Shown here: one piece after another, positions 3,542-64,000 of the stretch
Layout: each line of letters opens with the position of its first letter
How positions within the stretch are numbered: position 1 is the stretch's first letter
From: Selaginella tamariscina
Lineage: Eukaryota; Streptophyta; Lycopodiopsida; Selaginellales; Selaginellaceae
Direction: 5' to 3'
DNA: 64,000 nucleotides
Assembly (NCBI GenBank): GCA_003024785.1
Contig: PUQB01000128.1
Coordinates: forward strand, 379,812-443,811
Notes under the pieces: generated by a model
What the model saw: only the letters and a program-made list of their open reading frames with translations
Database searches by the model: none
What the model was told of the DNA's origin: nothing
Position numbers and translations under genes: made by a program

Positions 3542-4711
3542 TTAAGAGAGTGAGAAAGGGGCCATAGTTGGAGGCATCTGAGGACGTTCGAAAAGCACCC
3601 ATAGAAATGTGATGACAGAAGAGCAGCAGGAAATGGCATTCGCAGCCTAAAAGAAAATAACAGTTACTATATGCACACACTTTTATGGATAGATGGCAAC
3701 CAGAAATAGGAAATAACAGTTACTATACACACACTTTGGATATAGCAAGTTACTTACCGCAGTAGCCCCTTGAAAGGAAAAAATTCCATGCAAGGTCCAC
3801 ATAGCAGCGTTGCCCATGCTGAAGAGTGGGAGCCACAGATTGAAGTGCAAAGGAATCTCTGACGCGATCTGGAAATAAGTAAATGATTAAAGAGAGAAGC
3901 ATATGACACAAAGACACACGTTATATATGTGTACACTTACTGCAGCGAGAAGTGGACCTACACCAGCAGAGGCCGTAGTGGCGATACCCAATCCGGATAA
4001 ACCCTCGAACAAAACTGAAGGCGTGGTAGAACGACACCACAAGGTGACGGCCCAAACAACAGACAAAAGGACAACCAGCAACCAACGACTATAGCATCCC
4101 ATTCCCAGTAGGCAAGACGGTACACATGAACAGCCTCACATAAAACGCCAAAAATATTGAGGACTGCCATGGTGCCAGTCTCGCTATCCCACGCTGGCTT
4201 CACCATGCAGACCACAAAGCATATCACACAGTTCCAAAGAGTAAGGAACAAGGCCACAAAACCAACCAGGTTCGACTCATTCTTGAAAATGCTGTTTAAT
4301 AAGCAGCATTGTAAGAACTGTGTGTGTGTTGTGTTGTATATACATATATACATGTGTTGTGTACATATATACATGTGTGTTGTGTTGTGTTGTGTATTAA
4401 AACTTACAATGGAGACAGAAAAAGGAGGATAGACCATGCGGCTGCAAGAGGCACAACTCCCCAGGTCTTGATCCAACTCACCATAGGAAGGAATGCAACC
4501 ACGGGAATGCCGATACGTGTAGTACAAAACCAGCTCCACGTTGTCTCACACCAAATCTAAAAGAGAGATACTAAAATTAAAACCCAACACATGAAATAGA
4601 AGTGTTTTTGACACAATGTATACACAAATACAAAATGTTACCGCAAATGGAGTGGATCCACGGTCGGGAAGCAATTGGCCCTCTTCTTCAACATCTGTTG
4701 CGCCATGGCGC
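3542..4711 (-). CDS. SWEET/MtN3-type sugar transporter, left-arm copy (5' end undefined, one frame break)
   Basis: SWEET proteins are small membrane uniporters built from two triple-helix bundles that move sucrose or hexoses. Exons read from the sequence are 4642-4711, 4408-4556, 3941-4291, 3758-3868 and 3542-3646 with GT-AG sites. The first bundle shows LLFLSP, then FKNESNLVGFVALFLTLWNC and VLNIFGVLCEAVHVYRL; the second shows GLSGLGIATTASAGVGPLLA, LPLFSMGNAAMWTLHGIF and AANAISCCSSVITFLWVLF. These fit the MtN3 pattern. Exon 3941-4291 needs one extra base near 4070-4085 to join the two bundles, and the right-arm copy has the same break. The first exons join in phase and are unbroken here, unlike the right copy. 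The stop at 3542-3544 depends on an extra C (GGCCCC). The exon at 4642-4711 implies at least one upstream exon that I could not fix. Family assignment is fairly sure, functionality is not. Confidence 0.68.
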
Positions 4712-5940: not shown

Positions 5941-6609
5941 AATATTTTAACAAAGGGTTTCAGTATATTAATTCTAATCTAAAAACTTAAAATATCAATA
6001 TTCTATTTAATATATAAGCCCTTAAAGCTGGCTTAAGAATTTTAAATAACAAAAATTAAAATAATATCTTATACAACAATACCTAAGATGGGTGATATAA
6101 TTTAATTATGTTATACAAGTATGTTCTGCACAGTGTTAATTCCATTAAAAATGTTACTTCTGCATACAAATAAATTGAAATTTATTTACTTAATTCTATA
6201 TGACTAAAAATATATTTAAATATATAAATATGAGCTTAATATTTTTGAGTCCAAATTTTCAAATTAAAATTATAAAAGAAATATTATAAATTGTAAATTC
6301 TGAATTTCATTACATAATAAATTATTTTAAATATAATGTGTAATATAATATAAACATTACAAATACAGAGATGCAGTGTACATTGTATATATAAATTCAA
6401 ATACAACATACAATTTAAAACACAATGTTTATTACTTTTTTATTGTGATAAGTGGAGTTTATATTTGAAGCAGTATATATTTTAACGATGTGGTTTTATT
6501 AACACATACAAATGTTAATATAAAGTAACATTTATGTATTAAGAATTTAAAATTGAACTTGAATGTTTAAAAGATGAAATTGTATTGTGTAAGTCATAAT
6601 AGAATATAC

Positions 6610-6649
<40 letters not shown>

Positions 6650-7215
6650 TTAGTAAGTAATATTCATAAGTAATTTGATGTGAATTTTTAATAAGTAAAG
6701 TATAAAGTAAGTTGTACAAATTATAAAGATTTTAACACTTTAAAAAGCTTTTTTATGAGTACATAAAGTTTTTATAAAAAAACAAACATAAAATTTGGTT
6801 GGACATATTCTTTTATATAATATGAAAATATAAGGATCCTTAATAAATAAATAGTATATAATTAAAAATTTATTTCTTTATTAACTATTATAAGTAAACT
6901 ATAATATTTTATTATGCACTATTATAAAAAGTTAGATTTTGACTTTGATAATAAAATTAGTGATCTTATTAAAGTTGGTGATTTATTAATGAATAACATT
7001 ATATTATTGTTTTAATTAATTATTAAACGATAATATTTTAATTTCACGATATGTACACCGTTGAAGAGTAAAGTTTAAAATATATTCAAAATTGAATTAA
7101 TAACTCAATTTTTATTTTGAAATTTTTAATGAAAAAACATTGAATAACTATAAAAAATTGTTATAAAAAACATTTAAGATGTTCTTTAGAAAAAATTATA
7201 ATAATTTTAATGATA
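5941..7215. other. AT-rich DNA inside the left arm, no gene seen
   Basis: About 1.3 kb of A+T-rich sequence with a (TA)n run at about 6615-6645. No long frames, splice-like exons or RNA gene signatures are visible. It is mirrored at 38203-39480. Confidence 0.6.
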
Positions 7216-7289
7216 GTAATTTTACTGGTATATGTGTGTATATATACATACATGCTTGCACATAACTTAGATACTAACAAAGATAAAAT

Positions 7290-7565
7290 TTGATACGTAA
7301 GTTTATAAATTTATGAATCTATTTATTGCTTATTACTTATTTATTTAAACATTGTTGTAGTTTAATATTAATTAAGTAAACTCATAATTTGTTGTTATAA
7401 ATTAATATGCACATGAATACTTGTGCTAATTTTATTATTATATCTCTTTAATAAGTTATATATATGTGTGTGTGTGTTTACGAGTTCCAATAATTTATTA
7501 GCAATACACATCAAAGGTTGTTTACACACATACGTATGTTATACATATAAAAAAATATTTCCTAA
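7290..7565. repeat. inverted copy of 1930-2220
   Basis: The reverse complement of 1930-2220 is readable here, including the GAGTTCCAATAATTTATT and (TG)n segments. Together with its partner it brackets 2.2-7.3 kb. Confidence 0.6.
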
Positions 7566-8540
7566 TATAATATTATACATTTTTTAAAAAGTCACGTGAA
7601 GTTCTTCAAGGAGATTTTTTATGGTTTTCCATATTAAATAATTATCACTCTGGTACATATGCACATTGAATAAGCAATACATGAATGAAAAAAAACAATG
7701 TTTGTAAGATTAAAAATTAAGTATCTTATGTATTATTATAAACTTAGAACAATATTATACTTAAGAAATTAATTAATTTCTTAACCATTAGTTATAAACC
7801 GTAATATTTCTTAAAATTATACAAACTCATCAATAATTTAATGAATAAACCAGCCAATGAATATATTTCTCACCATGTCTAATAACTTTCTGTAAATTAA
7901 TATATATCTAATATATATCACAACAACATAGAAGAATTATATAATATGATAATATATTTTGATGTAATATAATATAATTTATGTATTATAATATACGGTA
8001 CCGTATTGTTCACCACATACAAACACATGCGAATCTAGATAAAATAAAATATAGTAGTCTTTAAATGTGTATATATGGATATGAGAATATACATTAATGA
8101 CATATTTCATTATATTCTAAAACTAATGAGTAAAAAAGTACATATGTAAAATCAATATGTATATTTATATAAAGCGCTCTCTAATATTGACATGTAATAA
8201 AGTTAATTAAAATTAACAACGGATTAAACATGTATAAACTAAAACATATTTAACTTATGCATTATACAAACTTGTTTAATCAGTGTGTGTGTGTGTGTGT
8301 GTGTGGTGTGTGTGTTATAAACTGCAAAGCAACATATTAGTATATACATAATTGCATATCAAAATTTAAAATGAGGAAACAATAAATATAACACTTTTCA
8401 AAATTAAATATTAAATATCTTGTATTATTATTATTATTATAAACTTATGAATACTTAAAACCGTTAATTAATTAATTAATCATTAGTTATATATCATAAT
8501 ATTTCTCAGAATTATGCATACCCACGAAGAGTTTGCGATT
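7566..8540. repeat. direct copies of the NUP205 3' flank, AT-rich
   Basis: The block at about 7710-7980 (TAAGTATCTTATGTATTATT through CACAACAACATAGAA) repeats 2590-2820 in direct orientation. A more diverged third copy runs from about 8400 into the NUP205 terminal exon at 8541-8640. A (TG)n tract is at about 8285-8312. No independent gene is seen. Confidence 0.65.
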
Positions 8541-40682: not shown

Positions 40683-41958
40683 GCGCCATGGCGCTGCAGA
40701 TGTTGAAGAAGAGGGCCAATTGCTTCCCGACCGTGGATCACTCCATTTGCGGTAACATTTTGTATTTGTGTATACATTGTGTCAAAAACACTTCTATTTC
40801 ATGTGTTGGGTTTTAATTTTATATCTTCTTTTAGATTTGGTGTGAGCAACGTGGAGCTGGTTTTGTACTACACGTATCGGCATTCCCGTGGTTGCATTCC
40901 TTCCTATGGTGAGTTGGATCAAGACCTGGGGAGTTGTGCCTCTTGCAGCCGCATGGTCTATCCTCCTTTTTCTGTCTCCATTGTAAGTTTTAATTACACA
41001 ACACAACACAACAACACATGTATATATGTACACAACACATGTATATATGTATATACACACAACACACACACAGTTCTTACAATGCTGCTTATTAAACAGC
41101 ATTTTCAAGAATGAGTCGAACCTGGTTGGTTTTGTGGCCTTGTTCCTTACTCTTTGGAACTGTGTGATATGCTTTGTGGTCTGCATGGTGAAGCCAGCGT
41201 GGGATAGCGAGACTGGCACCATGGCAGTCCTCAATATTTTGGTGTTTTATGTGAGGCTGTTCATGTGTACCGTCTTGCCTACTGGGAATGGGATGCTATA
41301 GTCGTTGGTTGCTGGTTGTCCTTTTGTCTGTTGTTTGGGCCGTCACCTTGTGGTGTCGTTCTACCACGCCTTCAGTTTTGTTCGAGGGTTTATCCGGATT
41401 GGGTATCGCCACTACGGCCTCTGCTGGTGTAGGTCCACTTCTCGCTGCAGTAAGTGTACACATATATAACGTGTGTCTTTGTGTCATATGCTTCTCTCTT
41501 TAATCATTTACTTATTTCCAGGTCGCGTCAGAGATTCCTTTGCACTTCAATCTGTGGCTCCCACTCTTCAGCATGGGCAACGCTGCTATGTGGACCTTGC
41601 ATGGAATTTTTTCCTTTCAAGGGGCTACTGCGGTAAGTAACTTGCTATATCCATAAGTGTGTGTATAGTAACTGTTATTTCCTATTTCTGGTTGCCATCT
41701 ATCCATAAAAGTGTGTGCATATAGTAACTGTTATTTTCTTTTAGGCTGCGAATGCCATTTCCTGCTGCTCTTCTGTCATCACATTTCTATGGGTGCTTTT
41801 CGAACGTCCTCAGATGCCTCCAACTATGGCCCTTTCTCACTCTCTTAACTGGTACTCTTAACTTAACTACAGATGTATATTAATGAATAGTTTATCTTTG
41901 CAGGCTCATAGAAGTCCTACTTAAGTGTGCTGGTTTTACTTTGTTATTTTGCTCATAA
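40683..41958 (+). pseudogene. SWEET/MtN3-type sugar transporter, right-arm copy, frameshifted
   Basis: Exons by GT-AG sites are 40683-40751, 40835-40982, 41100-41449, 41522-41632, 41745-41851 and 41904-41958. The protein signature is the same as in the left arm. Each of the first three exons has lost one base relative to the left arm (near 40738, 40850 and 41241), so the first transmembrane bundle cannot be read continuously. The break between the two bundles near 41290 is shared with the left copy. The end differs too: this copy reads MALSHSLN and splices to a further exon ending at the TAA at 41956-41958. The left arm lets the lesions here be polarised as deletions if SWEET conservation is trusted. 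Confidence 0.7.
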
Positions 41959-45839: not shown

Positions 45840-47038
45840 TAATGTGTAGCTGCATTCCTACGTGTGAATATAAGAATCAAATTAGCTCTTAAATGCAGCA
45901 CGAGAAGCTCATTTTCTTTGCGTCCTATAAACAAACAAGTGATAACATTAACTTAACACACACAATAATATATATGTACATAAAATATACATCTTTATCC
46001 TGTTATACAGTAGAAAAGTATTAACTTGTGTACTATATTATGATTTAACTACAGTGCGAGTGCGTACTGGTAAAGTAGGAGACTTACATTATTTGTACAT
46101 ATATGACTATTTTTGAATATACATTATAAGCCATGCAATACTATATTGAAACAATAATTATAAAGTATATAAATCTATCAGTGTTATCAAACACGGGAAG
46201 TTTTAGCAGATTGATCCTTCTTTGCATCCTCCTGGTTAACACACAAAATAGAAATATGTATGTGTATATGTATATTTAGTATGCATGCCTCTAGACAATA
46301 TACGTTTACACACGCACTCCTTTTATTAGATTACCGTAAGTTGGCAATCAATAGAGGATAAGTGTTGAATTACAGCCATTACAAAGAGTGCTTGCGTTCC
46401 TCGCTTGTTTGTTCTGAAAGCATATTTGTAGAAGCAACGCTAACTCAGCCTCATGTGTGTATAAATCCCGTGAAATGCCTGCAATTAGTAAGGTTAATAC
46501 ATTATTATATAGAATGAGAGAGAGAGGAGAGAGAGAGAGGAGTCAGTCCGAGTATCAGAGTCTTAGTAATATCAGCTTGTGGAATTGGCAATCTATTGTT
46601 AATATATAATATATATTTATATATATAAAACGCACGTACAAAACACAGGCACACCCCTTAAGCATGATATATGCAAAACAAAGCTGTATATATATATATT
46701 TAAATTATATATATCTACACACAAACACGTGTACACACCACACCTTAAGCTCATCCTTGTACATCTCTAAAAAAGGCGGGAAGTCATGTTGAGTCTCTGA
46801 TAAGTATATCAAGAATCTGCAAATAATAAACCATATATAATATATATATTTATATCATACATTATAAATACTATATTGATAGGACATATAGGCTTAAAGT
46901 GTATTAGTGAATTTATTATTTAGTTCACCGAACATACATTTATGCAGATCTGTGTGCCGATGTACACACACACCCCTCATTTTTTGAAGCCCATCTGATG
47001 TAGTGTTTGTCAGAAGCAAAGGAATATTCGGAACCTTA
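45840..47038 (-). pseudogene. NUP205 shards left of the transposon
   Basis: Pieces match parental 10.23-10.32 kb (ATTAGCTCTTAAA), 11.2-11.3 kb, 11.66-12.1 kb (TTGATCCTTCTTTGCATCCT, TCAGCCTCATGTGTGTATAA) and 15.4-15.79 kb (AAGGCGGGAAGTCATGTT, GAAGCCCATCTGATG), in gene order but with most sequence deleted. It ends at the transposon insertion point. Confidence 0.7.
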
Positions 47039-47045
47039 TGAAGTT
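47039..47045. repeat. left target-site duplication of the MULE-like element (TGAAGTT)
   Basis: TGAAGTT stands at both element junctions (47039-47045 and 54895-54901), with imperfect extension to 9 bp (TATGAAGTT against ATTGAAGTT). MULE transposons typically duplicate 8-11 bp. A related unoccupied sequence at 58597-58603 carries TGAAGTT once. Confidence 0.65.
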
Positions 47046-47216
47046 GAGGATTAACAAACCGGGCTTCGTACAACGGGCTTTTCGCATATTCCCGAATATC
47101 CAGGAATATTCTGTCAAATAAAAGGGAATATTCTAGAATATTCTGCCAAGTAGATTATCTTTAACTTTCAATATAAAATGCCGACCAACAAGTGAAAAAC
47201 GCTAATTATTTGCCGA
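47046..47216. repeat. left terminal/subterminal repeat region of the MULE-like element
   Basis: It contains CCGGGCTT and CGGGCTT words followed by GAATATCC, GGAATATTCTG and GAATATTCTAGAATATTCTG, then GCCGACC and GCCGACT sites at about 47180 and 47212. The right end (in reverse complement) has the same order of GGGCTT words, then GAATATTCT motifs, then GCCGACTG-type sites. These are presumed transposase-recognition sequences. Confidence 0.6.
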
Positions 47217-50200
47217 CTAGACTTTACTATACCGACTACTTAAAAAGGTCGCAGGTTCGACATTGCGCTTGCAATCAACCAATAACCGATGCACTTCTGC
47301 TGGAGTAAGGGTCCGCCTCTGTAAGAAGTAAGTAATCGTTGGGTCCAATCCAAGAACATGAGTGTACACAAAATACATGTGTTGGCAGGGGCTCCAGTTC
47401 TTGGCTTTCTGAAAAGTTGCACAAGTGCATGACGGAACAGTAGAAATTGTTACCTTAGCAGATTGCATGCCTGCAGAGACAATGAAGGCCTCAGTCTTCC
47501 CTCTTTGAACCACCTCCACGTTGTTGATCCGACCTTGAAGAATCTTTGCCTGGTTGTAATGTTTCTCATGTTCCTTGGACATTCTTGTTGGTGTTCGCAC
47601 ACTCCGTCCATGGTATGTTGGTACTCTATGTGCTCCCTCTCCTCTTGGTGGTGATGGTGTTCGATCCATTCGGCTACTACTGTCGTCTACCATTTCTTCA
47701 AATCCCTCCAACTTGAATCCTGCTTTCAGAAGAGCTTCAACCTCATTTGCATTCAAGTTTGTTCCTTTTTGAACTGGCCAAACCTCTGGAACTTCTGGAA
47801 TACTCTCAGGAGGAATCCCTGCATATGGTCGTCTGAAGCAACAAGAATCGCGTGGGCAGAACCATAGCATCTGATGAGTGAACTCAATGTTCCCAAATGC
47901 ATTTGTATATTGCCGTCTACCGTGAAATCCTGGTGCCGGTACACGATGTGGATATCCTATGGGTCTGCCACACTTGCTGTTACCGTCCTGAGTGAGACCT
48001 AGACATTTCACCTGACTTGCCTCCCCAATGCGTCTGATGGCACCACTGAGTCATCAACGTCTCTCTTTCAGTGACATTGACATCTTGAAACTTGAGTTTT
48101 TTCCTGCGTGCATTTGGGATGACTTGTTCTGCATATTGTGTGTCATGTCTATGTGTACGAAGTGCATCAATCCCATGGTCCCCAGTTGACGGTTGACGAA
48201 CGGTTCGAACACGAACATTTGTTGTAGAGGCAAACTCTGGACTTGCAAGATGCTCTTCATCACTAACAAGATTTGCAAAAGTTGTTGGAGACACTGATTT
48301 TCCCGCTGAAAGTTTCTGCTGTGCACGTTTCAGAAGAGTTTCCATGGAAGGACCTGTGCCTGAATATCTCCCTTCAAATGATGCCTTGACCTTTGCACTT
48401 TGGAAAACAGCATCTGTTAAATCTAACATTGTTGCCTCCAACAAAGGAACACGCTTCGTCAGCCTTGCTCTTCGTGCTCTTGCATGAACAACTTCGGAGT
48501 TGTTAGTGGTAGGCACATTCGCAACACCATCTTCTGTCAAGTCAATTATCTCTGTCATGGAAATATGATCTTCATGTCTTGCCCACCATGACAGCCATGT
48601 TTGCAAAGCGCTAACGTTACTGGACCTGCCTTCCCAAAATGACTCCAACATTACTCGTCGTTCCAACTTATCTTGGTTGGTTAGTGCTGCAGGCCATGAG
48701 CGTGCAAGGTTCATGTGCTCCTCCCTGTGTTCCTCAAGTATCCACTTCTTTGTAACTTGACGCACTGACTGCATGTAATGGAACAAACAACTCCTTTCTC
48801 TTCCTCTCATCTTTGACCCATTGTTGAAAACTTGACGCAATGCTAACCAAATTGCACCTGACTCATCTGACATGAACCCCGCAAAGTTCACATTATGAAG
48901 TCCTTGCTTGCTGCACACTTGAAGCATAGTGTTCAAAAATTTGATCACCGCCACACTATCCTCCCTGATCATGTCACCATAAGCAAGTGTCACCATCGAC
49001 CTTAAACTACACAAACATAAGTGCATTATATTAGTAAGTATTTTAAAACATAGATATGTTAATACTTACAATGGATCATAGAGATGTATTCCCAGTGTAC
49101 ACCAATCATCAATACGATATGTGTGGTCTAGCACCACCCACTGCTGTTCGAGATCACCTCCAGATTGACACCTTCTAATGTAGTCTATTCCGGATCCTGG
49201 GCCGGCAACCGTCATTTTGAAGATTAAAGGCTGCTCTTCAGCTCCGTTGAGGTCCATTCCGGGTATGTGGATAACATGTATGAATGGGATTGATAGCTTC
49301 TTCTTTAACTGCAGAAGTCCTTCGTAACCTTCTTTGAAACGAGTGTCTCTTGTTCTAGCCTGAGATATCCATTCTCTTGTTCTACAGTGGAAAGGTTAAG
49401 CATCTCCAAAAGGAAATAATAATTTTTTTGCTTACCGGCGGTGATTTGTGAGTGGTAGTAGATCTGACAGAACCTTGTCGTATGATACATCTCCAGAATC
49501 TGTTACCAGTTTTTCCAAAATTATATTGCGTGCTGCTTGAAACTCTATGACACGTTGATTAGTTCTTGGGGTTGCAGCGACTGCTTTGTTGATTGTCTCC
49601 TTAGCTCTGTCTTTAGAGACCATGGATTCGGGTGGTCTACGTGGGTGTTGATGTTCTCCAAGATGGATGAAAAGCCTCGTGCATGTGATATCATCTGGAA
49701 TTATGTAATATGCAACAACGGAGCATGTCTGCACTAGAAGGGGCTCATTGTTGCAATGCACACACTTCATTCCAAGCACTCTACCATCTGAAGATAACTG
49801 GACTTTATCAATGGTGCCCTTAAATTGGCAGTCATTTGCTTTCTTACTGAAGCTGATGAACGGACATGTTTCCTTTACGCATTTCATGTGGCCAATACAT
49901 GAACTGCGACTAACACGAGCTGGAACATTCCAATGTGTTGTGCAGCGTTGAGTCCAGTAATCACACCCATCCTTCCTATTCATCCCTTTGTACTTGTCCT
50001 TCATTGTTTCGTGTGCTGGCAACTCGTAAATCACATTTCCGTTGCAATCTTCTGGGACCTCAGCAACTTGCTGAATCGATGACGAGACCACCAGTTGCTT
50101 CCCAATCCTACATCTCTGACTATTGCGAAGTATTGTTACCATAGAATTGTCCCGATCTGTTGTCTCCAACCGGAATAGCGGTCCTTTGGAAGGAAGAAGT

Positions 50201-50415
50201 GTGTAATACACAAAACTGCTAGCTCTTGCCCCTTCTGGTTCTACCTCAACATTCGCAGCATCTCCACCAACAACAGACATCAAATGCAGCACTTTAAAAG
50301 ATTGCCAAGGTGGAATGTCAAATGCAGACCTGAGATCTGTTTCAAAGACAAATGCAATACCATCTTCATCTGCAGGGAAGTCCTTGTCAACACCATTGTA
50401 GCTGATTCTTGCCAT
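47217..50415 (-). CDS. MULE-like transposase with GCM1-type N-terminal zinc region and SWIM finger (one frame break)
   Basis: Exons 49436-50415, 49070-49381 and 47217-49006 join with GT-AG sites in consistent phase, about 1,030 codons in all. MARISYNGVDKDFPADED is taken as the start. Residues about 150-265 hold a Cys/His-rich block (SCIGHMKCVKETCPF, KCVHCNN, then GEHQHPRRP) resembling the WRKY-GCM1 zinc-finger superfamily, known in Mutator-like transposases. The DDE core follows: VVLDHTYRIDDW (first Asp), GFMSDESGAIW (second Asp) and CLFHYMQSVRQ (the C..H motif), with Glu candidates in LESFWEG. The C-terminus carries a SWIM finger, CTCATF followed by CQHMYFVYTHVLGLD. The frame breaks once near 48050, where MTQWCHQ must give way to SGAIRRIGEASQVKC; it is a 1-2-base indel or an unseen tiny intron. 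The protein would bind and cut the element ends in the nucleus. Confidence 0.82.
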
Positions 50416-50675
50416 GTAGCAAAAATGGAACAAACAAAAGTTAAAATTCAAAGACAATGAACATATTACACACGATGGTTAATGTGTTTGTTAGTCGTGA
50501 GGCAATCATTTCATTGACAAATATTAAAAATAATATTAATTGCGTGCGTCTGGGTAGAAGAGTGAAATTAATTTACTGCGTCTGGGTAGGTTTTTTGTAA
50601 ATTAAAAAGTTTTACTATGTACAAGTGGCGATCATGCATGCAATATGTTTACAGAAATTAGGTTGGTTTTTAATT

Positions 50676-50735
50676 GATTTAGGGCGGCTAGGGTTTTGCA
50701 ATTAGGGCGGCTAGGGCAGCTAGGGCGGCTAGGTT
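50676..50735. repeat. short tandem GGGCGGCTAGG repeats
   Basis: Four near-copies of AGGGCGGCTAGGG spaced 10-24 bp apart in the intergenic spacer of the MULE-like element, upstream of the palindrome array. The role is unknown; it may be part of the promoter. Confidence 0.75.
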
Positions 50736-50907
50736 TTCGTGGAGCAGGGCATTTGGGGGCATAGCGTGGAGCAAGTGTGGCTCCAGGGATTAATCACAAT
50801 AGGCTTCCATTGAGGGGGTGAGTATTTTCTGATTTCTTCATGATCTGCTCATGATCTTTTCATGATCTGTTCATCTTTTTACATCTCTTCACAGTTGCAA
50901 GAAATCC

Positions 50908-51301
50908 GAGTCGGCCTGCCGACTCGGACTGACTTCGTTGTCCGTCCCAGTCGGCAGGCCGACTGGGGTGGACTGTTCCAGATCCAGTCAACATTTTGAC
51001 CGGGGTTGACTGTTCCAGCCCCAGTCAGCATTTTGACTAGGGTTGACTGTTCTAGTCCCACCTAGCATTTTGACTGGGCCTTGCTTCGTTCCCAGTCCCA
51101 GACTGGGCCTCCCTTTGTTGCCACCAGTCGGCATGCCGACTGGGCCTCCCTTTGTTGCCAGCCCAGTCGGCATGCCGACTGGGACTCCCTTTGATGCCAG
51201 TCCCAGTCGGCATGCCGACTGGGACTCCCTTTGATGCCAGTCCCAGTCGGCATGCCGACTGGGACTTACAGCAACTGCTCTCTCAGTCGGCACGCCGACT
51301 G
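50908..51301. repeat. phased array of palindromes (consensus CAGTCGGCATGCCGACTG)
   Basis: Seven units are 18-bp palindromes or near-palindromes starting at 50908, 50948, 51125, 51164, 51204, 51244 and 51284, spaced 39-40 bp apart within each cluster. Between the clusters, three weaker units (CAGTCARCATTTTGAC at 50985 and 51022, a half copy at 51060) and CAGTCCCAGACTG near 51094 keep a step of about 34-38 bp. Each palindrome is a dyad of CAGTCGGCA. The roughly four-helical-turn spacing places sites on one DNA face, which suggests cooperative binding by a dimeric protein. The same half-site GCCGACT appears near both element ends. Candidate binders are the element's own ParB-like protein or its GCM1-domain transposase; that is inference. 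Confidence 0.9.
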
Positions 51302-51386
51302 TGAGGGCTAGTATGTTTTTTTAATTTTTATTAAACATCTTTGAACATTTATTACAGTTTTTTGTTAAACCTTATTGCTTTTGTAG

Positions 51387-54300
51387 ATGCGCTCTTCACA
51401 ACGTTTACAAGAAAAGAAGATGAAGGAGCCTACTGAGAGAGAAGCAGAAGCTAGAGCTGCAATTCAGAGAGGGCGTCGGGGTCGTGGGAGAGGAAGTAGG
51501 AAGCTGGCTGTGGTTCAGGAACAAGGACCTTCAAGTGATGCTCCAGTTGAACAGGCAAGCCAGCAGGACTGGTCAGGAGAGCAAGAGGATGTAGTTCAAC
51601 CCCAACAAGAACAATCAGACTTTGTTGAAGAAGTTGAGGATGATGTCTTACCACAGGAGACACAGGAGCAGACAGAAGGCACACAAGCCTCATGCGCAGT
51701 GACTTTGTCGAGTGACGAAGAGGATGAACCCAAGAGCAAGAAGAGACGACGCAAAGCTGCTGGAGATTCAGAGGCTGCTAAGAAGAAGAAGAAGGGAAAG
51801 CAGAAGTGCCAGATAATGAGGAAGTTTACAACATTGCAGCCAGCATGCATTCGGAGAGTGCAGTGCGTCTTCTCGCGAAGATCACAATCCGAGAATATGG
51901 AGAGGCACCGGAATTCTGGGAAATGAGCAGGTGCGGAGAGTCAATCCAGCGGATCTGGAATCTTTGACTAGGAGTTTCAAGAAGGCAGTTGGTTATTTGC
52001 GCAACACCACTCAGTTCATCCTTCAAGTTGGGGACCCCATGACAGATGCAGATCTGGCAGCATTGAGAAGCGATGAAGCGATGTATGCTCAGCATTTGGC
52101 TTTTGAGGAGGAGCTTCAGTCGACATGTTCCGGCAATGGGCACCAATGCTTTCGATGAAGAAGTTCATCTGTTGGGATGGTAATCACAGGCTAAAGGTGC
52201 TTCAGAAGCTGTACACAGAAGACACGGAAGATAAGATCAGTGGGCAGTGAGAGTGCGTTCAGGCTTCATCCGTGCTGGGGTCATGGATAATCTTCAGCTT
52301 GTGACAATGTTTCAGCAAATTAATAGGTAAACATAGTGACCTCTAGATCATAGGATTAACTAACTTCGAGCTTTTCAAATATGCAGTTCCTCCGCAACGG
52401 CAGTGCAAACCACACTGCCACATCTTCTGCTATCTGTGAAGACATGTTGCACCAGTGAGGAGGGCACAGCGAAGATCTTGGCCAGGCTCAGTGACAAGGA
52501 ACGAGATGACATAAGAAAGTGGAAGGAAAGCGCAACTGGACAACAAGCTTGGCATCCACTTCCGAATTTGATCTGTGCAAAGATTTTTTTGAGGTACCAC
52601 GTCTCACACTTATTACTTAGTTGATTACGTCTGTGAATTACAGAGTGAGATTGAGGATGATCTTGAGAAGGCTGCAAGGGCATCCAAAGGCAACAAATAC
52701 CAGGAGCAACAACAGGTCTACATTAAGCATGACAAGCGCATGATGAAGATCTTAGCCATCATCGATCCTGCATTGGGTGAAGAGTGGTTCGACAAGGTGA
52801 CCCAAATCACATGGAAACAATGCAGATGGATGGGGTTGGAAAAGCTGTACGCGCTTTCAAGGGCGAGAATTCCAAACGAGACGAGAATCATGTACTTCAA
52901 TAAACTGGTACGTCTCGATCTGAAGAGAGAGCAAGAGACACTTGGATTGCCGGGTGTTCAGGATAAGGAGTGGATAAGGTGGTTTACTATCGATTTGTAT
53001 TGGCGGCGATCAGAGAGGAGGCAGTACAGATTCTCACGGGACTCATCGAGGATGGCGAGTGGAGCAGGCCGGTTACAGATTTCACGACTTGGTGCGATGA
53101 AGTGCGGGTAAAATGCAAGAACGTGATGTTCCAGCCATTCCATGAGTGTGTGAAGTTCACTTACTCCATAGAGCCGAAAGAGTTCCTCGAACACGAAGAG
53201 ACAGCAAGAAGGATGATTTGGAGGTAAGGATGATCTTCTTGACATTGTTACATTCTGACACTACTATATGTTCATTACAGGTATGTCGCAGCGAGAAAGG
53301 TGCCTCACACACAGACTATGGTATTCTGGTCAGATTACATGGAAGCACCACACATGTGGTCGAAGACAAGATCTGGCCTGACAGAGTTCGAGCGTGTACA
53401 CGTACCGTTCTGGCTTGATTATCCACCTGGGCAACCACCAACATGGGAGAAGGATCTCTACAATGAACACTCAAAAGATCTCCCATGCATCTCATGGGAT
53501 CCGGCAGAGGTCGACTTCATTAAGAAGACAAAGGCCAAGGCAAAGCGGCGTCAGCCTGTGCAGCAGTCAAAGAAGACCTCAGATACAGTAGCTGGCACCT
53601 CCACTACTCGCGATCCAGCTGCCTTCTTCAATTTATCTGAAGTGCTACCATCGCAGGGAACCATGGACATCAAGGATGACTTGGTCACATTCGTCCCTTC
53701 ACTTGCTACAACTCGAGGTGATAATTTCTTGGCGATTGATGACATCGAGGAGATGCAACAGGCCGTGCTCACGGATGAGAAGGAAGAGGAGGTTCCTGAC
53801 GCTAGACTGGTTCCTTATAGAAAAGTTCAGACACAGGTGGCCAGGTACCATACAGCTGACAGCCAGACTCGCTACCAGCATATTGCGGGAGAATATGGTT
53901 TCAACTTGGTGATCTTCGACCTTCCAAATGGGACCTTGCCAGGAAATACAACGAGTGATACGCCATACCTCTACCTTGATCCAGTGAAGTTCGATGAAGC
54001 ACTCCAGTTTGCAGGTATGCATATGGCTGCAAATGGTTGGTTGGTTGTGTTTGCTGCAGCAAACACCTGGGATCAAGTTGTCCGAGCTGCAAGTGTGGTG
54101 GACCTTCAACTTGCTGCAACGTACTACATCTACAGAGGGCGTGGTTGGGGCTACCGCAACAAGATGAAGGTACTTTTTTCTTTATTCATGAAGTTCATTA
54201 ATGATTTTGATGTTTTAACAGGAGAGCATCCTGCTCCTTCTTGTCTTCCAAGATGCATCTAGAGGATTGCGCGATAATCCGCGTTTGTCATCAACAATTC

Positions 54301-54674
54301 TTGTTGATAATCCTGAGCGGTTCCAAGAACCATGGTAGGCATTTCATTTCAACAATTAAGTATTTACCATTATCTTCACATGCAGGATGGACTACCAACC
54401 GAAGAGCACTCGATTGATGCAGCTCGTGATAGAACGACTCACCCGGCCAGGTGATCTTATCTGGGATATAGGCAGTGGTACGGGGTCCTCAATGCTTGCA
54501 GCTATCGAGCTGGGGAGAAACATTGTTGGGACTGAGAAGAACCCTGAGCTCGGGAGAATTGCTATGAACAGGATTAAAGAGAACATCCAGCCAGAGGAAA
54601 TCCCAACCCAACCAATAGCGACGTCGACTGGTGGTTCACGAATTGCAGCATTGCTCAATCGTAAGAAGAAGTGA
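51387..54674 (+). CDS. ParB-like (DGNHR) / beta-class amino-DNA methyltransferase, transposon-encoded, 5' half frameshifted
   Basis: Exons are 51387-52326, 52387-52593, 52644-53223, 53281-54169, 54222-54334 and 54386-54674, all GT-AG. The N-terminus is Gln/Glu-rich with a nuclear-localisation-type tract (KSKKRRRK, KKKKKGK). At 52176-52190 the frame reads DGNHR within FICWDGNHRLKVLQKLY, the signature of the ParB-like superfamily. The C-terminal half, one unbroken frame from about 52975 through the stop at 54672-54674, has motif IV as DLPNG in FNLVIFDLPNG (53918-53932) and then motif I as DLIWDIGSGTGSSMLAA (about 54456) followed by LGRNIVGTEKN. The order IV then I is that of beta-class N6-adenine or N4-cytosine methyltransferases; ParB-methyltransferase fusions are common in phages and bacteria. 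DLPNG lacks the aromatic residue of DPPY-type motifs, so catalysis may be impaired. About six single-base frame breaks (near 51800, 51920, 52118, 52240, 52560 and 52972) damage the 5' half. Confidence 0.78.
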
Positions 54675-54761
54675 CAAGTGTTGAATTGTACTCTTTGGTG
54701 TTGAAATAAAACTTTAATAATACAGTATAAACATGGCTATGATTAAATATTTTTTGTTGTT

Positions 54762-54894
54762 AATTGCCGACTGAGCCAAAATCCTAAATTCTAAGAATAT
54801 TTAGGAATATTCTAAGAATATTCTGGTAGATTCTTTAGAATATTCCGGGTCCAAGCCCGGAAGCCCGGAAGCCCTCTTTTTGTCGGGACTCTAT
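54762..54894. repeat. right terminal/subterminal repeat region of the MULE-like element
   Basis: From inside outward it has a GCCGACTG half-site at 54766-54773, then GAATATT, GAATATTCT and TAGAATATTCCGGG motifs, then repeated AAGCCCGG words and GTCGGGACTCTAT at the tip. In reverse complement this mirrors the word order of the left end. Confidence 0.6.
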
Positions 54895-54901
54895 TGAAGT
54901 T
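54895..54901. repeat. right target-site duplication (TGAAGTT)
   Basis: Second copy of TGAAGTT. The host sequence GTGTGTAAATACTAATATAC resumes just after it, matching the paralogous empty site at 58.6 kb. Confidence 0.65.
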
Positions 54902-55740: not shown

Positions 55741-56525
55741 AGAAACGAAAATTAATATTAAATATGAAAATTAAACATTCATTCTCCTTCTACTGTGATC
55801 AATCATAGTGAGATCGGGAGGCAACCTGTTCCCTGTCAAGTATCCAATATGCTTTAAAGTTGCAATTGCTTCTTCATGCTTGCCATCCAATATTAATTGC
55901 CTGGGAGAGGTAACAATTGCTGGAAAGACCGAATATAATGTACAAGAAGATTATAATTGCCAAAGTAACACAGATCAGCTCTATATTTCTAGTCATAACC
56001 AAGGGCAAAACTACACCGGAAGAAATCAGAACTGTACAAAATATAAGAAGAACGGAGCAACAACTTAGATACTCTCTCTGCACATACGGTATAGGTATAC
56101 ATATAGCAAAGCATAAGGTGATATAAGATGTAACACATCAAATACTGTAGAATTTGTAGCGTAAACTGACTGAAACAACCTACATAACCCCTCAACTGTA
56201 AGGGCGCACTTGAAGAGGGACTTCATTGGCAACCATTTAAATAATATTGTAAGAATCCCAAAACCTACCAACAACAAAATTGGATAAGAGAGAGAGAGAG
56301 TATGTAAAATAATAAACTTTCCACATGATACATCGATCATTGATGCAGCCCGAAGAAGATCCTTCATATCTATTAATGAGACAATCAAGAAGGCATACAA
56401 ATGAAATTGAAGTATCAGTATAACAAGGCAAAGAGCATAAAATTGACGCTGGTGAAAAACTCATAGTTTGGCCATGCTTTTTGATCTCCTCTAGCGTATA
56501 TTTAGCCATACCACCTAATTTTAAC
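55741..56525 (-). pseudogene. fragment of an unrecognised gene, copy B
   Basis: Same gene remains as at 44880-45625: LEEIKK near 56490, MKDLLRAASMIDVSCG near 56350, a stretch ending EGLCRLFQSVYATNSTVF near 56150-56200, and DGKHEEAIATLKHIGYLTG near 55840-55900 followed by NRLPPDLT. Stops and indels break it, but different exons survive from those in copy A. The family is not recognised. Confidence 0.5.
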
Positions 56526-56833
56526 CCTAATTTTAAACAAAATTAAGTAGTAAATCAATTTTAGCCCCAACAAAGAAAATGAATATACAGGGAATAAGTT
56601 AAAAATATTAACATACCAACACATTAAAAATTAAGTAATTATTTATAAATCATAAAATTTATTACTTTATCACCTTTTCATATAAATATTTATTTAAATA
56701 TTAATATGACATCAATAACATTAACTTACCATTAACTAAACACACATCATATATATCATGCAGGGCATATACTTCTAAAAATAATACATCAACAATATCT
56801 TATAATACATCATCCGTCTCTTATCAATTTTGT

Positions 56834-57118
56834 TTGTTGGTAGGTTTTGGGATTCTTACAATATTATTTAAATGGTTGCCAATGAAGTCCCTCTTCAAGT
56901 GCGCCCTTACAGTTGAAGGGTTATGTAGGTTGTTTCAGTCAGTTTACGCTACAAATTCTACAGTATTTAATGTGTTACATCTTATATCAGCCTTATGCTT
57001 TGCTATATGTGTGCCTATACCGTATGTGCAGAGAGAGTATCTCGACATACGTCGAATAAGTTGTTGCTCCATTCTTTATATTTTTTACAGCTTTGATTTC
57101 TTCCGGTGTAGTTTTTAA
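56834..57118 (+). pseudogene. fragment of an unrecognised gene, copy C (inverted)
   Basis: One exon of the same gene (KCALTVEGLCRLFQSVYATN, VLHLISALCFA) on the opposite strand to copy B, about 550 bp away. B and C thus form a short inverted repeat of about 280 bp. The C frame stays open longer than the matching part of B. Confidence 0.55.
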
Positions 57119-61337: not shown

Positions 61338-64000
61338 ATGAGCGACAACCCTGTGGTTGTGCTTGGAGTGATTGAGGCAGAGAAAGGTGAAGAATTAATA
61401 TGGAAGTTGAACATGAAGAAGGGAACAACTCTGTTCCAGAGTATGAGTGGACTGATGAAGCTCTTACTGCTGAATTTGCTCGTATTAAATTCACTCTGGA
61501 GACACTTGTGAAAGATGTTCATGAGGGTCTTGATTTTTTTCCGTGATGAGTTACGGGGTTATCAGAAGTTCGTGGTTTGAAGGGTTCTTCTTCTAAACAT
61601 TTTGAAAGAGGCTTGTGCCGAATTTTGATGGCCGTGGCGGGCCGGTGATAGCTATTGCTTGGCTAGCTAACGCTGAAAAGCTAGTGGAACTGCAAGGCCT
61701 TACGTTGGATGAAGCTTTTCATGCAGTGACTTTTGCTTTGACAGGAGATGCACTAAGTGGTGGCATCGTGTGAGTGTAGAAAGAGAAAAAATGGTCGATT
61801 GGTGGACTCACTTGAGGAGTTTAAGAAGTTATTTTCTTCTGAATACTCTCCTGCTAATGATTCTAAGGTCGCACTGCTAGCACTACGTAAGTGCACACAG
61901 CAAATAGTTTGGATAGCTACATCAAAGAAATGACTGATTATTTCTCGAGGACTGTTTTACCAATGGAAGTCCAAAAGACGTACTTTTTTGGATGGATTGG
62001 CAAGTCCAACTATGAAATCTCAGTTGGAGGGCTGATTCTATTGATGTGGACCTTGAGGAGATGTTTAAAAAAGCAAGGATATTGATATTTCCTTAGGCAA
62101 GGAGCATCGTAATATAGAAGTTATGGACGTTCTATCGTGATAAGGGACGGTTTGATCGTCATCACCACCCTTATGATAAGAAAGGGGGTTTGGAAATAAC
62201 CCGTATGACAGAAAAGAAGAATTCAGAAAAAATTCAAATATACATGTCAAGTCTTATCAAGCCACTAAAGGATGCTTTAAGTGTGGTGACACTACACATG
62301 TGGTTAGAGATTGCCCCTTAGAAGAGTTATCCATTAAGGGTAGTCTAAAAAGCTTTCTAATACAGAAACAAGTGAGCTGTATTGTTGGGAAAACTCTTCC
62401 TGTTGGTCCAGAAGAACCAGTCATTGTGCTTATGGCTCAAGTACATGGTACTTCTGCAAGTGTATTATTGGATTCTGGTAGTTCTGATAATTGGGTTTCA
62501 TGGAACTTTGTTAATCATTTGAAGTTACCAGTGAAAACTACAGATCCGTATTGTATTGAAGGGGTTGTTATAGATCCACAAGAGCATCATGGTATAGTTA
62601 CTATACCATTAACTGTAGAGGGCACTACAGTGAAGGAGGATTTTTTTGTGGCTAACTTGAATCGATATGATATTATCTTTGGCATGCCTTGGTTTAAGAA
62701 GATGACACCAGTAATTGATTAGAATACTTATGAAGTTTCCATGGAGCACAATAATTCCAAGATAGTTTGGCATGGAAAGAAGTATACTTCTCCTAGTAAG
62801 TTACTTTCTGCAACTTCCATGAAGCGAGCAATAAGGAATTCCACTGCAAGTTATTTGGTGTATGTGTGTGATATGGAGGATGCTTCAAAGATCGATAACA
62901 ATCATGTTCAGGTACGTCCTTTAATATTAGATGAACATGGTTAATATAGTTATTAGAGATAGACATACCTTATTTTCTGCCATTAAACTTAAAAACGTAA
63001 TTAATGCTAATCGAGGTTTAGGTGTTAACCTGTTCACATTAGGATTAACCCTAGAACCCTAAATTCACTTACTTGCAAGCCAAATTGTCATAAAGTTATA
63101 GCTAAGGAGAATTCCATAGCTGAAAATGTCAAATACGATAATTCTTGCTTAACTTCAAAGTTAAGTGTTAAACTTACAACACGTGAGAATAAGGACTTGT
63201 ATAATGCTCAATTGCAATATATATTAAAGGAATATACAGATGTATTTCCTGATACATTGCCTCAGGAGCTTCCCCCACGGCGAGAAATTGAGCATGAAAT
63301 TGATCTTGAGAGTGGGACTAAGCATGTCTCTCGAAGTCCTTATCGATTAACTCATCTAGAGGAACTTGAGGTTAAAAAGCAAGTTCAAGAGCTTATATCT
63401 CAAGGTTTATACAACCTAGTAAGTCTCCCTTTGGAGCACCTGTGTTGTTAGTTAAGAAAAAGATGGGTCTATGAGACTGTGTATTGATTATCGTATGCTT
63501 AATAAGACCACTATCAAAAATAAACATCCTATGCCACGAGCTGATGATATTTTTGATAGGTTGGCGGGTGCCACCTGTTTTACAAAGATAGACCTAAGGA
63601 GTGGCTATCACCAAGTAACTGTTCGAGAACAGGATGTGATGAAAACAGCTTTTCGAACCCGACAAGGTCATTATGAATTTCTAGTAATGCCTTTTGGTTG
63701 ACTAATGCACCTGCTACTTTTATGACATTAATGAATAACATTTTTTCACAATATATTGACCAATTTGTGCAAGTGTTCTTAGACGATATTTTAATATATA
63801 GTAAAACTCCTACCGAACATTTGTTACATTTAAAACAAGTGTTAGAAGTTTTACGTAAGCATAAATTATATGCGAAAATGTCTAAGTGTGAATTTTTTAA
63901 ACCCGAAGTAGAATATCTAGGTCATGTGGTTTCTTCTAAAGGATTAAAAGTTGATCCTAAAAGGTGGCAGTTGTAAAAAACTGGCCAATTCCACATGATG
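61338..64000 (+). pseudogene. Ty3/gypsy gag-protease-RT, broken by small indels, cut by window end
   Basis: A putative gag start is at 61338 (MSDNPVVVLGVIE). The gag frame breaks within 150 bp and again several times to about 62250. A zinc knuckle CFKCGDTTHVVRDC is at 62273-62314, an aspartic protease motif LLDSGSSD at about 62465-62488, and reverse transcriptase motifs (CIDYR near 63485, [13 protein letters not shown] near 63580-63617, FLDDILIYS near 63775-63800, [12 protein letters not shown] near 63912). Stops near 62720, 62942, 63450 and 63701 separate otherwise well conserved blocks, several explained by a single missing base. RNase H and integrase lie outside the window. It is younger than the relic at 31-37 kb and differs in LTR start (TGTAAGG) from the element at 1.7 kb (TGTTATG). 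Confidence 0.88.

Follow-up and report, generated by a model that had tools for sequence, protein, structure and literature searches.

What a methyltransferase-like gene is doing beside a transposase, and whether the two genes belong to a single mobile element, are the questions raised by a locus of the spikemoss Selaginella tamariscina. The locus lies in a stretch of 64,000 nucleotides from contig PUQB01000128.1 (positions 379,812 to 443,811 of the forward strand), called here the window, within which all coordinates are given unless another contig is named. At 47046..54891 the window contains a DNA transposon of 7.85 kilobases (kb) that resembles a Mutator-like element (MULE), starts with GAGGATT, ends with GGGACTC and has boundaries common to its copies. 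A transposase gene is found on its minus strand and, divergently on the plus strand, a second gene with a ParB-like motif and part of a methyltransferase domain. This element is a real, young, high-copy two-gene transposon with roughly 200 near-identical copies, and its transposase and methyltransferase genes travel together.

The limits of the element have been established by comparing copies across the assembly that contains the window (300.7 Mb, 1,391 contigs). Twenty copies were picked by similarity to the transposase end and retrieved with their flanks, and ten others were picked instead by the methyltransferase gene; with the window copy, 31 copies were examined for their ends. The transposase-chosen copies track the element at 95–99% identity with insertions and deletions (indels) counted (BLAST), several of them in two pieces that break at a tandem array, and the second-gene side is present in 19 of the 20. 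In this set, L022 is truncated by a contig end at 51819, L023 lacks 53026–53144 and the match of L020 stops at 54788. In the methyltransferase-chosen set, both ends stand at the expected place in 8 of 10 copies, C862 running off its contig and C749 lacking both ends. Both ends are thus readable in 27 of the 31 copies (they were not both found in L020, L022, C749 and C862), and 20 of these 27 are flanked by a duplication of 9 base pairs (bp) with at most one mismatch, compared with a mean of 0.84 and a maximum of 6 when the flanks were shuffled. The exceptions are the window copy, L019, L023 (offset by one base), L033, L036, C1154 and C532. In the window, the left target-site duplication (TSD), TATGAAGTT at 47037..47045, was delimited from the sequence and the 9-bp rule of the 27 copies, and the right one, TATTGAAGTT at 54892..54901, is one base longer, the two being one indel apart. 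The original prediction had described one bounded insertion with a target duplication, holding both genes, at 47046–54894. The single insertion is borne out by the shared ends and the duplications, and the left end stands, but the right end is moved to 54891 by the 20 + 10 copies. Two nested independent insertions were considered and rejected, as both genes lie between one and the same pair of termini across copies.

Genome-wide counts address the association of the two genes. With up to three mismatches allowed, a 33-mer around methyltransferase motif IV is found at 218 sites (117 + 101). The transposase was probed under the same tolerance with a 36-mer centered on its first aspartate, which is found at 212 sites (94 + 118); the reversed control gave 0 in each case. 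Positions were listed for 100 of the 218 methyltransferase and 100 of the 212 transposase sites, all of them exact matches. Among these, a divergently oriented transposase site lies 4,481–5,968 bases (median 4,860) away from at least 79 of the methyltransferase sites; this is a lower bound because, for example, C506 is unpaired among the sites listed although its transposase end was found. For 8 of the 21 methyltransferase sites left unpaired, a transposase site of the list lies no more than 20 kb away, and for the other 13 there is none that near. Of the transposase sites, 95 were entered (those on contigs up to C604), and 16 of them lack a partner among the matches listed. The search for other copies with both genes between the same termini, proposed together with the original prediction, has therefore a clear positive answer. 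The mean pairwise distance among the 20 transposase-chosen copies is 0.44% outside the tandem array (range 0.08–1.24%), a value biased towards young copies because they were picked as best matches. The copies on C981 and C147 (L055/L056 and L061/L062) have identical flanks and an identical target duplication and, since the flanks are shared, represent one insertion assembled twice. Three copies of low protein identity, checked for an ancestral motif IV, belong to the same family, with DNA 96–98% identical (L063 over the last 0.8 kb only). Because young copies fill the genome-wide lists, an older related family may have gone unlisted.

The transposase gene (47217..50415, minus strand) has three exons, at 50415–49436, 49381–49070 and 49006 to about 47217, and encodes a zinc-rich N-terminus, a DDE-like core and a SWIM-like finger. 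In the window copy its frame is broken near 48000–48050 by small indels, and that of the second gene is broken likewise in exon 1 and near 53000. Both genes are open in copy L024, where they encode proteins of 1,018 amino acids (three exons) and 1,015 amino acids (six exons), respectively. The introns of both genes are 50–63 bp long with GT-AG borders (52–63 bp in L024). Relative to L024, 181 one-base deletions were counted among the copies, and some of them may be assembly errors because 104 fall in runs of at least two bases. The changes in the transposase are 10 non-synonymous to 14 synonymous (P 0.0005), in copies selected by identity to part of this same gene.

The assignment of the transposase to the Mutator group had been made from its zinc region of the GCM1 type, its DDE core and its SWIM finger. 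The SWIM profile PF04434 is matched below the Pfam cut-off of 19.6, with 16.5 bits (E 0.006) for the window frame and 14.5 bits (E 0.026) for the full L024 protein. The N-terminus ending in G-x-H-x-H (similar to GCM1/WRKY), the C-x-x-H and the TNN..E of the L024 transposase were recognized by eye from known patterns; no Pfam profile matched the DDE core or the GCM1 finger, so that both labels denote by-eye motifs. Neither the full transposase nor its DDE region matched a MULE/Mutator model in Pfam, and for this reason the element is called only MULE-like. The duplication of 9 bp, on the other hand, lies within the 8–11 bp expected of MULEs. Long terminal inverted repeats (TIRs) were not found in the element, which has only GAG...CTC tips and mirrored subterminal motifs. 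In the left subterminal region (47046..47150), CGGGCTT occurs at 47060 and 47074 and GAATATTC at 47104, 47126 and 47136; in the right one (54800..54891), GAATATTC occurs at 54805, 54816 and 54838 and AAGCCCG at 54853 and 54861. Each terminus has therefore three GAATATTC motifs (after shuffling, 0.11 per element on average and 2 at most) and a CGGGCTT or AAGCCCG pair that mirrors the one at the other end.

The second gene (51387..54674, plus strand) is spliced from six exons, at 51387–52326, 52387–52593, 52644–53223, 53281–54169, 54222–54334 and 54386–54674. Its product has the S-adenosylmethionine (SAM)-motif half of a beta-class N6-adenine (N6A)/N4-cytosine (N4C) methyltransferase domain. The last-exon frame (54360–54674) matches the METHYLTRANSFERASE domain, PF01555, with 39.6 bits (E 7.4e-10, cut-off 26.7), and the full-length L024 protein also exceeds this cut-off, with 29.7 bits. 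Exon 6 (54386..54674), which carries the motif X/I region with DIGSGTG, is further assigned by an hhalign comparison with four phage beta-class methylases (98.1% over 84 columns), and it matches phage methyltransferase families of PHROGs, among them PHROG 67 (E 1.1e-12). One phage match in tblastn is longer (E 3e-4), with 24% identity over 73% of the segment, and CcrM is ranked first by NCBIfam for the full L024 protein. The similarity to the beta-class N6A methyltransferases of bacteria and phages (CcrM, DpnA, MboIIA and PHROG 67) extends to the order of the motifs, with motif IV before motif I, and to the C-terminal half. In contrast, the element protein is only 24–27% identical to the four phage enzymes and its motif IV reads DLPN. 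Motif I has the same sequence in 17 of 21 copies; G is changed to D in L024, L023 and L036 are frameshifted there, and L022 is cut off. The N-terminal ParB-like motif, KFICWDGNHRLK (52161..52196, plus strand), is a motif without profile support, and its DGNHR can be read in 20 of 21 copies, the exception being the truncated L022. The spliced structure, DGNHR and motif I of the original prediction have thus been confirmed, while ParB likeness stays at the level of a motif and motif IV, claimed as a beta-class signature together with motif I, lacks its aromatic residue.

Constraint on this gene was evaluated against an expectation from the copies' own mutation spectrum (non-synonymous fraction 0.742). 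Changes common to two or more copies are 11 non-synonymous to 10 synonymous (P 0.025), and changes overall are 68 to 38 (P 0.014). An ordinary host methyltransferase gene was considered for this locus and rejected.

Between the two genes, at 50908..51301, the element has an array of seven 18-bp palindromes, (C/G)AGTCGGC-NN-GCCGACT(G/C), with a spacing of 39–40 bp except for one gap of 177, together with two related CAGTC-N8-GACTG dyads (at 50985 and 51022). A looser dyad pattern allowing two substitutions finds 9 matches in the 520-bp array stretch versus 11 in the remaining 63,480 bp of the window. All 21 copies have between 4 and 12 palindromes in this intergenic position. Exact palindromes number 1,743 genome-wide (reversed control 0), about 8 for each of the 218 methyltransferase sites, as seen in the copies. 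The 50 palindrome sites listed, on C1, C10, C13, C58, C69 and C72, are clustered at the element's spacing, and each of these contigs also has a listed motif IV site. With up to two substitutions allowed, no variant of the palindrome core was found, and in one class of units the outer pair is altered on either side; the units may also stay alike through turnover of the array. Chance palindromes were considered and rejected. The palindromes are therefore candidate binding sites, and the element would have two classes of sites, terminal ones for the transposase and central ones for an accessory protein or for promoter control.

On balance, we favor the view that this is a recently active, autonomous MULE-like DNA transposon whose second protein is an accessory DNA-binding protein recognizing the element's own palindromes. 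The transposase would move the element by means of the subterminal GGGCTT and GAATATTC repeats, and the N-terminal, ParB-like part of the accessory protein would recognize the palindromes. The methyltransferase domain would then act there, either by methylating the element or through SAM-dependent binding without catalysis, an option that is considered because motif IV lacks the aromatic residue. The probable effect would be the control of the element's own divergent promoters and a shielding from host silencing such as an anti-silencing factor provides. The accessory role is supported by a parallel with the accessory protein of the Sola1 transposon of Ectocarpus.

Several results weigh against this reading. 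At E ≤ 0.001 in a set of 5.8 billion proteins, no relative was found for transposase residues 100–640 (best 7,998 candidates), nor for residues 160–985 (best 8,000 candidates) or 780–985 (978 candidates) of the second protein, and one scan of viral contigs confirmed no relative. ParB had no match in Pfam, PHROGs, NCBIfam or a tblastn search of phages and plasmids, the best matches of the segment in the latter having E values of just 6 to 9 and the single match in PDB one of 1.3; the ParB label thus leans, at motif level, on DGNHR and on analogy to the Ectocarpus protein as described in the literature. Profile matches to the methyltransferase domain are confined to its motif X/I half (profile positions 165–220 of 221 in PF01555), and the remaining ~780 residues of the second protein have no recognized homologue. 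When the domain segment is compared with NCBIfam, a corrinoid-associated methyltransferase (1.1e-6) comes out ahead of CcrM (7.7e-6), and among the PDB matches MboIIA, DpnA and CcrM stand together with a ribosomal-protein L11 methyltransferase. Since these rankings mix methyltransferase kinds, the half-domain by itself is not specific to DNA methylases. The constraint on the second gene is of moderate strength, its singletons alone giving 57 non-synonymous to 28 synonymous changes (P 0.085). Finally, the motif IV region, LVIFDLPNGT (53906..53935, plus strand), is degenerate: 20 of 21 copies read DLPN, the contig of L022 ending before it, and the 33-mer that contains it is identical at all 100 listed of the 218 sites. 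The catalytic pattern of PF01555, [DNS]-x-P-aromatic, is accordingly absent at motif IV from the 20 copies read and the 100 listed sites, and this makes catalysis doubtful.

The rival that survives best, to which we give somewhat less than an even chance, explains this uniformity by a pseudoenzyme, that is, a dead methyltransferase fold retained as a DNA- or SAM-binding regulator, which would recognize the element and control both promoters without methylation. It would account for the DLPN of the copies read and the sites listed, next to a SAM-motif region whose score still exceeds the PF01555 cut-off, and for the moderate constraint on the gene. The relative from Ectocarpus, on the other hand, has been described as having a domain with N4C or N6A as its predicted product. 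A second rival concerns the palindromes, which might have no connection with the second protein and be sites for the transposase or for a host factor, or part of the promoter architecture. This is a serious if rather doubtful possibility, suggested by the position of the array between both promoters and by the fact that transposases commonly bind repeated motifs. Against it, the palindromes are internal and distinct from the GGGCTT and GAATATTC end repeats, where transposase binding is expected.

It is unlikely, in our opinion, that the second protein is an active N6A/N4C methyltransferase that marks the element's DNA and tolerates the change from an aromatic residue to Asn in motif IV. The aligned phage enzymes read DPPYG (two), DIPYG and DLPYG versus DLPNG in the element, so that DLP is normal among them and the aromatic residue is the sole departure; the conservation of motif I and the constraint on the gene would also fit an enzyme. 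In known enzymes, however, the aromatic residue of motif IV stacks on the flipped base, and Asn is unchanged in every copy read. The alignment with the phage enzymes shows, in addition, that the HPTQKP stretch has drifted to DYQPKS. A self-recognition similar to that of partition complexes is improbable: a ParB-type protein would load at the element's parS-like palindrome array and coat or mark the element, and a methyltransferase domain with lost catalysis or a changed target would shield the copies from silencing. A chance-captured passenger without a role for the element, similar to those of Pack-MULEs, is very improbable in spite of the tendency of MULEs to acquire fragments of host genes (described in PMC6446971), given the 218 sites, the pairing of at least 79 of the 100 listed with a transposase, the constraint and, according to its description, the parallel architecture of Ectocarpus Sola1 in another transposon superfamily.

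The preferred reading of an accessory DNA-binding protein finds its closest precedent in this Sola1 element, described as encoding, on the strand opposite the transposase, an accessory protein of 1,104 amino acids with ParB-like and N4C/N6A methyltransferase domains; the same description cites ParB-methyltransferase accessory genes from green and red algal transposons. The architecture of the spikemoss element resembles this description, with a large protein encoded opposite the transposase inside a DNA transposon, in which ParB is represented by a motif and the methyltransferase by part of its domain. Unlike the spikemoss element, which is MULE-like and 7.85 kb long with a 9-bp TSD, a degenerate motif IV and a palindrome array, Sola1 is 21.5 kb long and comes from a brown alga. 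The novelty attributed to a methyltransferase-bearing MULE was thus overstated, given these similar genes as described for Ectocarpus and other algae, although the open-access literature searched (one library) yielded no report of such a gene from a land plant or from a transposon of the Mutator type. For MULEs, TSDs of 8–11 bp, groups without TIRs and additional open reading frames in several elements have been described, and the spikemoss element is similar to MULEs, including the TIR-less groups, in its 9-bp TSD, its extra open reading frame and, below the Pfam cut-off, a SWIM-like finger (PMC6446971). It differs from MULEs in having no long TIRs and a transposase too diverged to score with the Pfam MULE models. 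We know of no description as methyltransferases of the VANC anti-silencing proteins, a difference from the spikemoss element. VANC proteins are described as encoded by VANDAL elements and, as predicted for the accessory protein of the spikemoss, are sequence-specific proteins of a transposon acting on its own copies (PMC10398659). Mobile elements with their own DNA methyltransferase are also described among retrotransposons, which differ in their methylase classes: Dam-like N6A methylases in DIRS elements, and DNA methyltransferases (DNMTs) in elements of dinoflagellates and charophytes (PMC5890265).

Other features of the window and assembly have been also noted. Reading frames at 939–1382, 62180–62722 and 63029–63451 resemble, by eye, pieces of a retrotransposon polyprotein (CCHC knuckle, protease-like and pol-like). 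A long peptide string is common to 3958–4545 (minus strand) and 40707–41114 (plus strand), an unnamed repeat present twice in the window. Another is shared by the neighboring inverted stretches 56065–56460 (minus strand) and 56705–57118 (plus strand), perhaps another repeat. The guanine plus cytosine (GC) content of 6001–8000 is just 18% over 2 kb. Elsewhere in the assembly, a 3.9-kb locus with 54% GC contains a land-plant-like rbcL frame (C1148:647533–648459, L042), indicating plastid DNA, with ACG at the position of the start codon (Thr before SPQTETK). GC-rich, heavily edited plastid DNA and very short introns suggest a fit with Selaginella.

The significance of the element lies in the appearance of an apparent ParB-methyltransferase equivalent in another transposon superfamily and in a land plant, in roughly 200 young copies. 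The missing aromatic residue of motif IV raises the question of whether such proteins work as enzymes, and a candidate recognition site present as 1,743 palindromes makes binding and methylation directly testable. Transposon-borne proteins of the DNA-modification type bear, in turn, on how mobile elements evade silencing.

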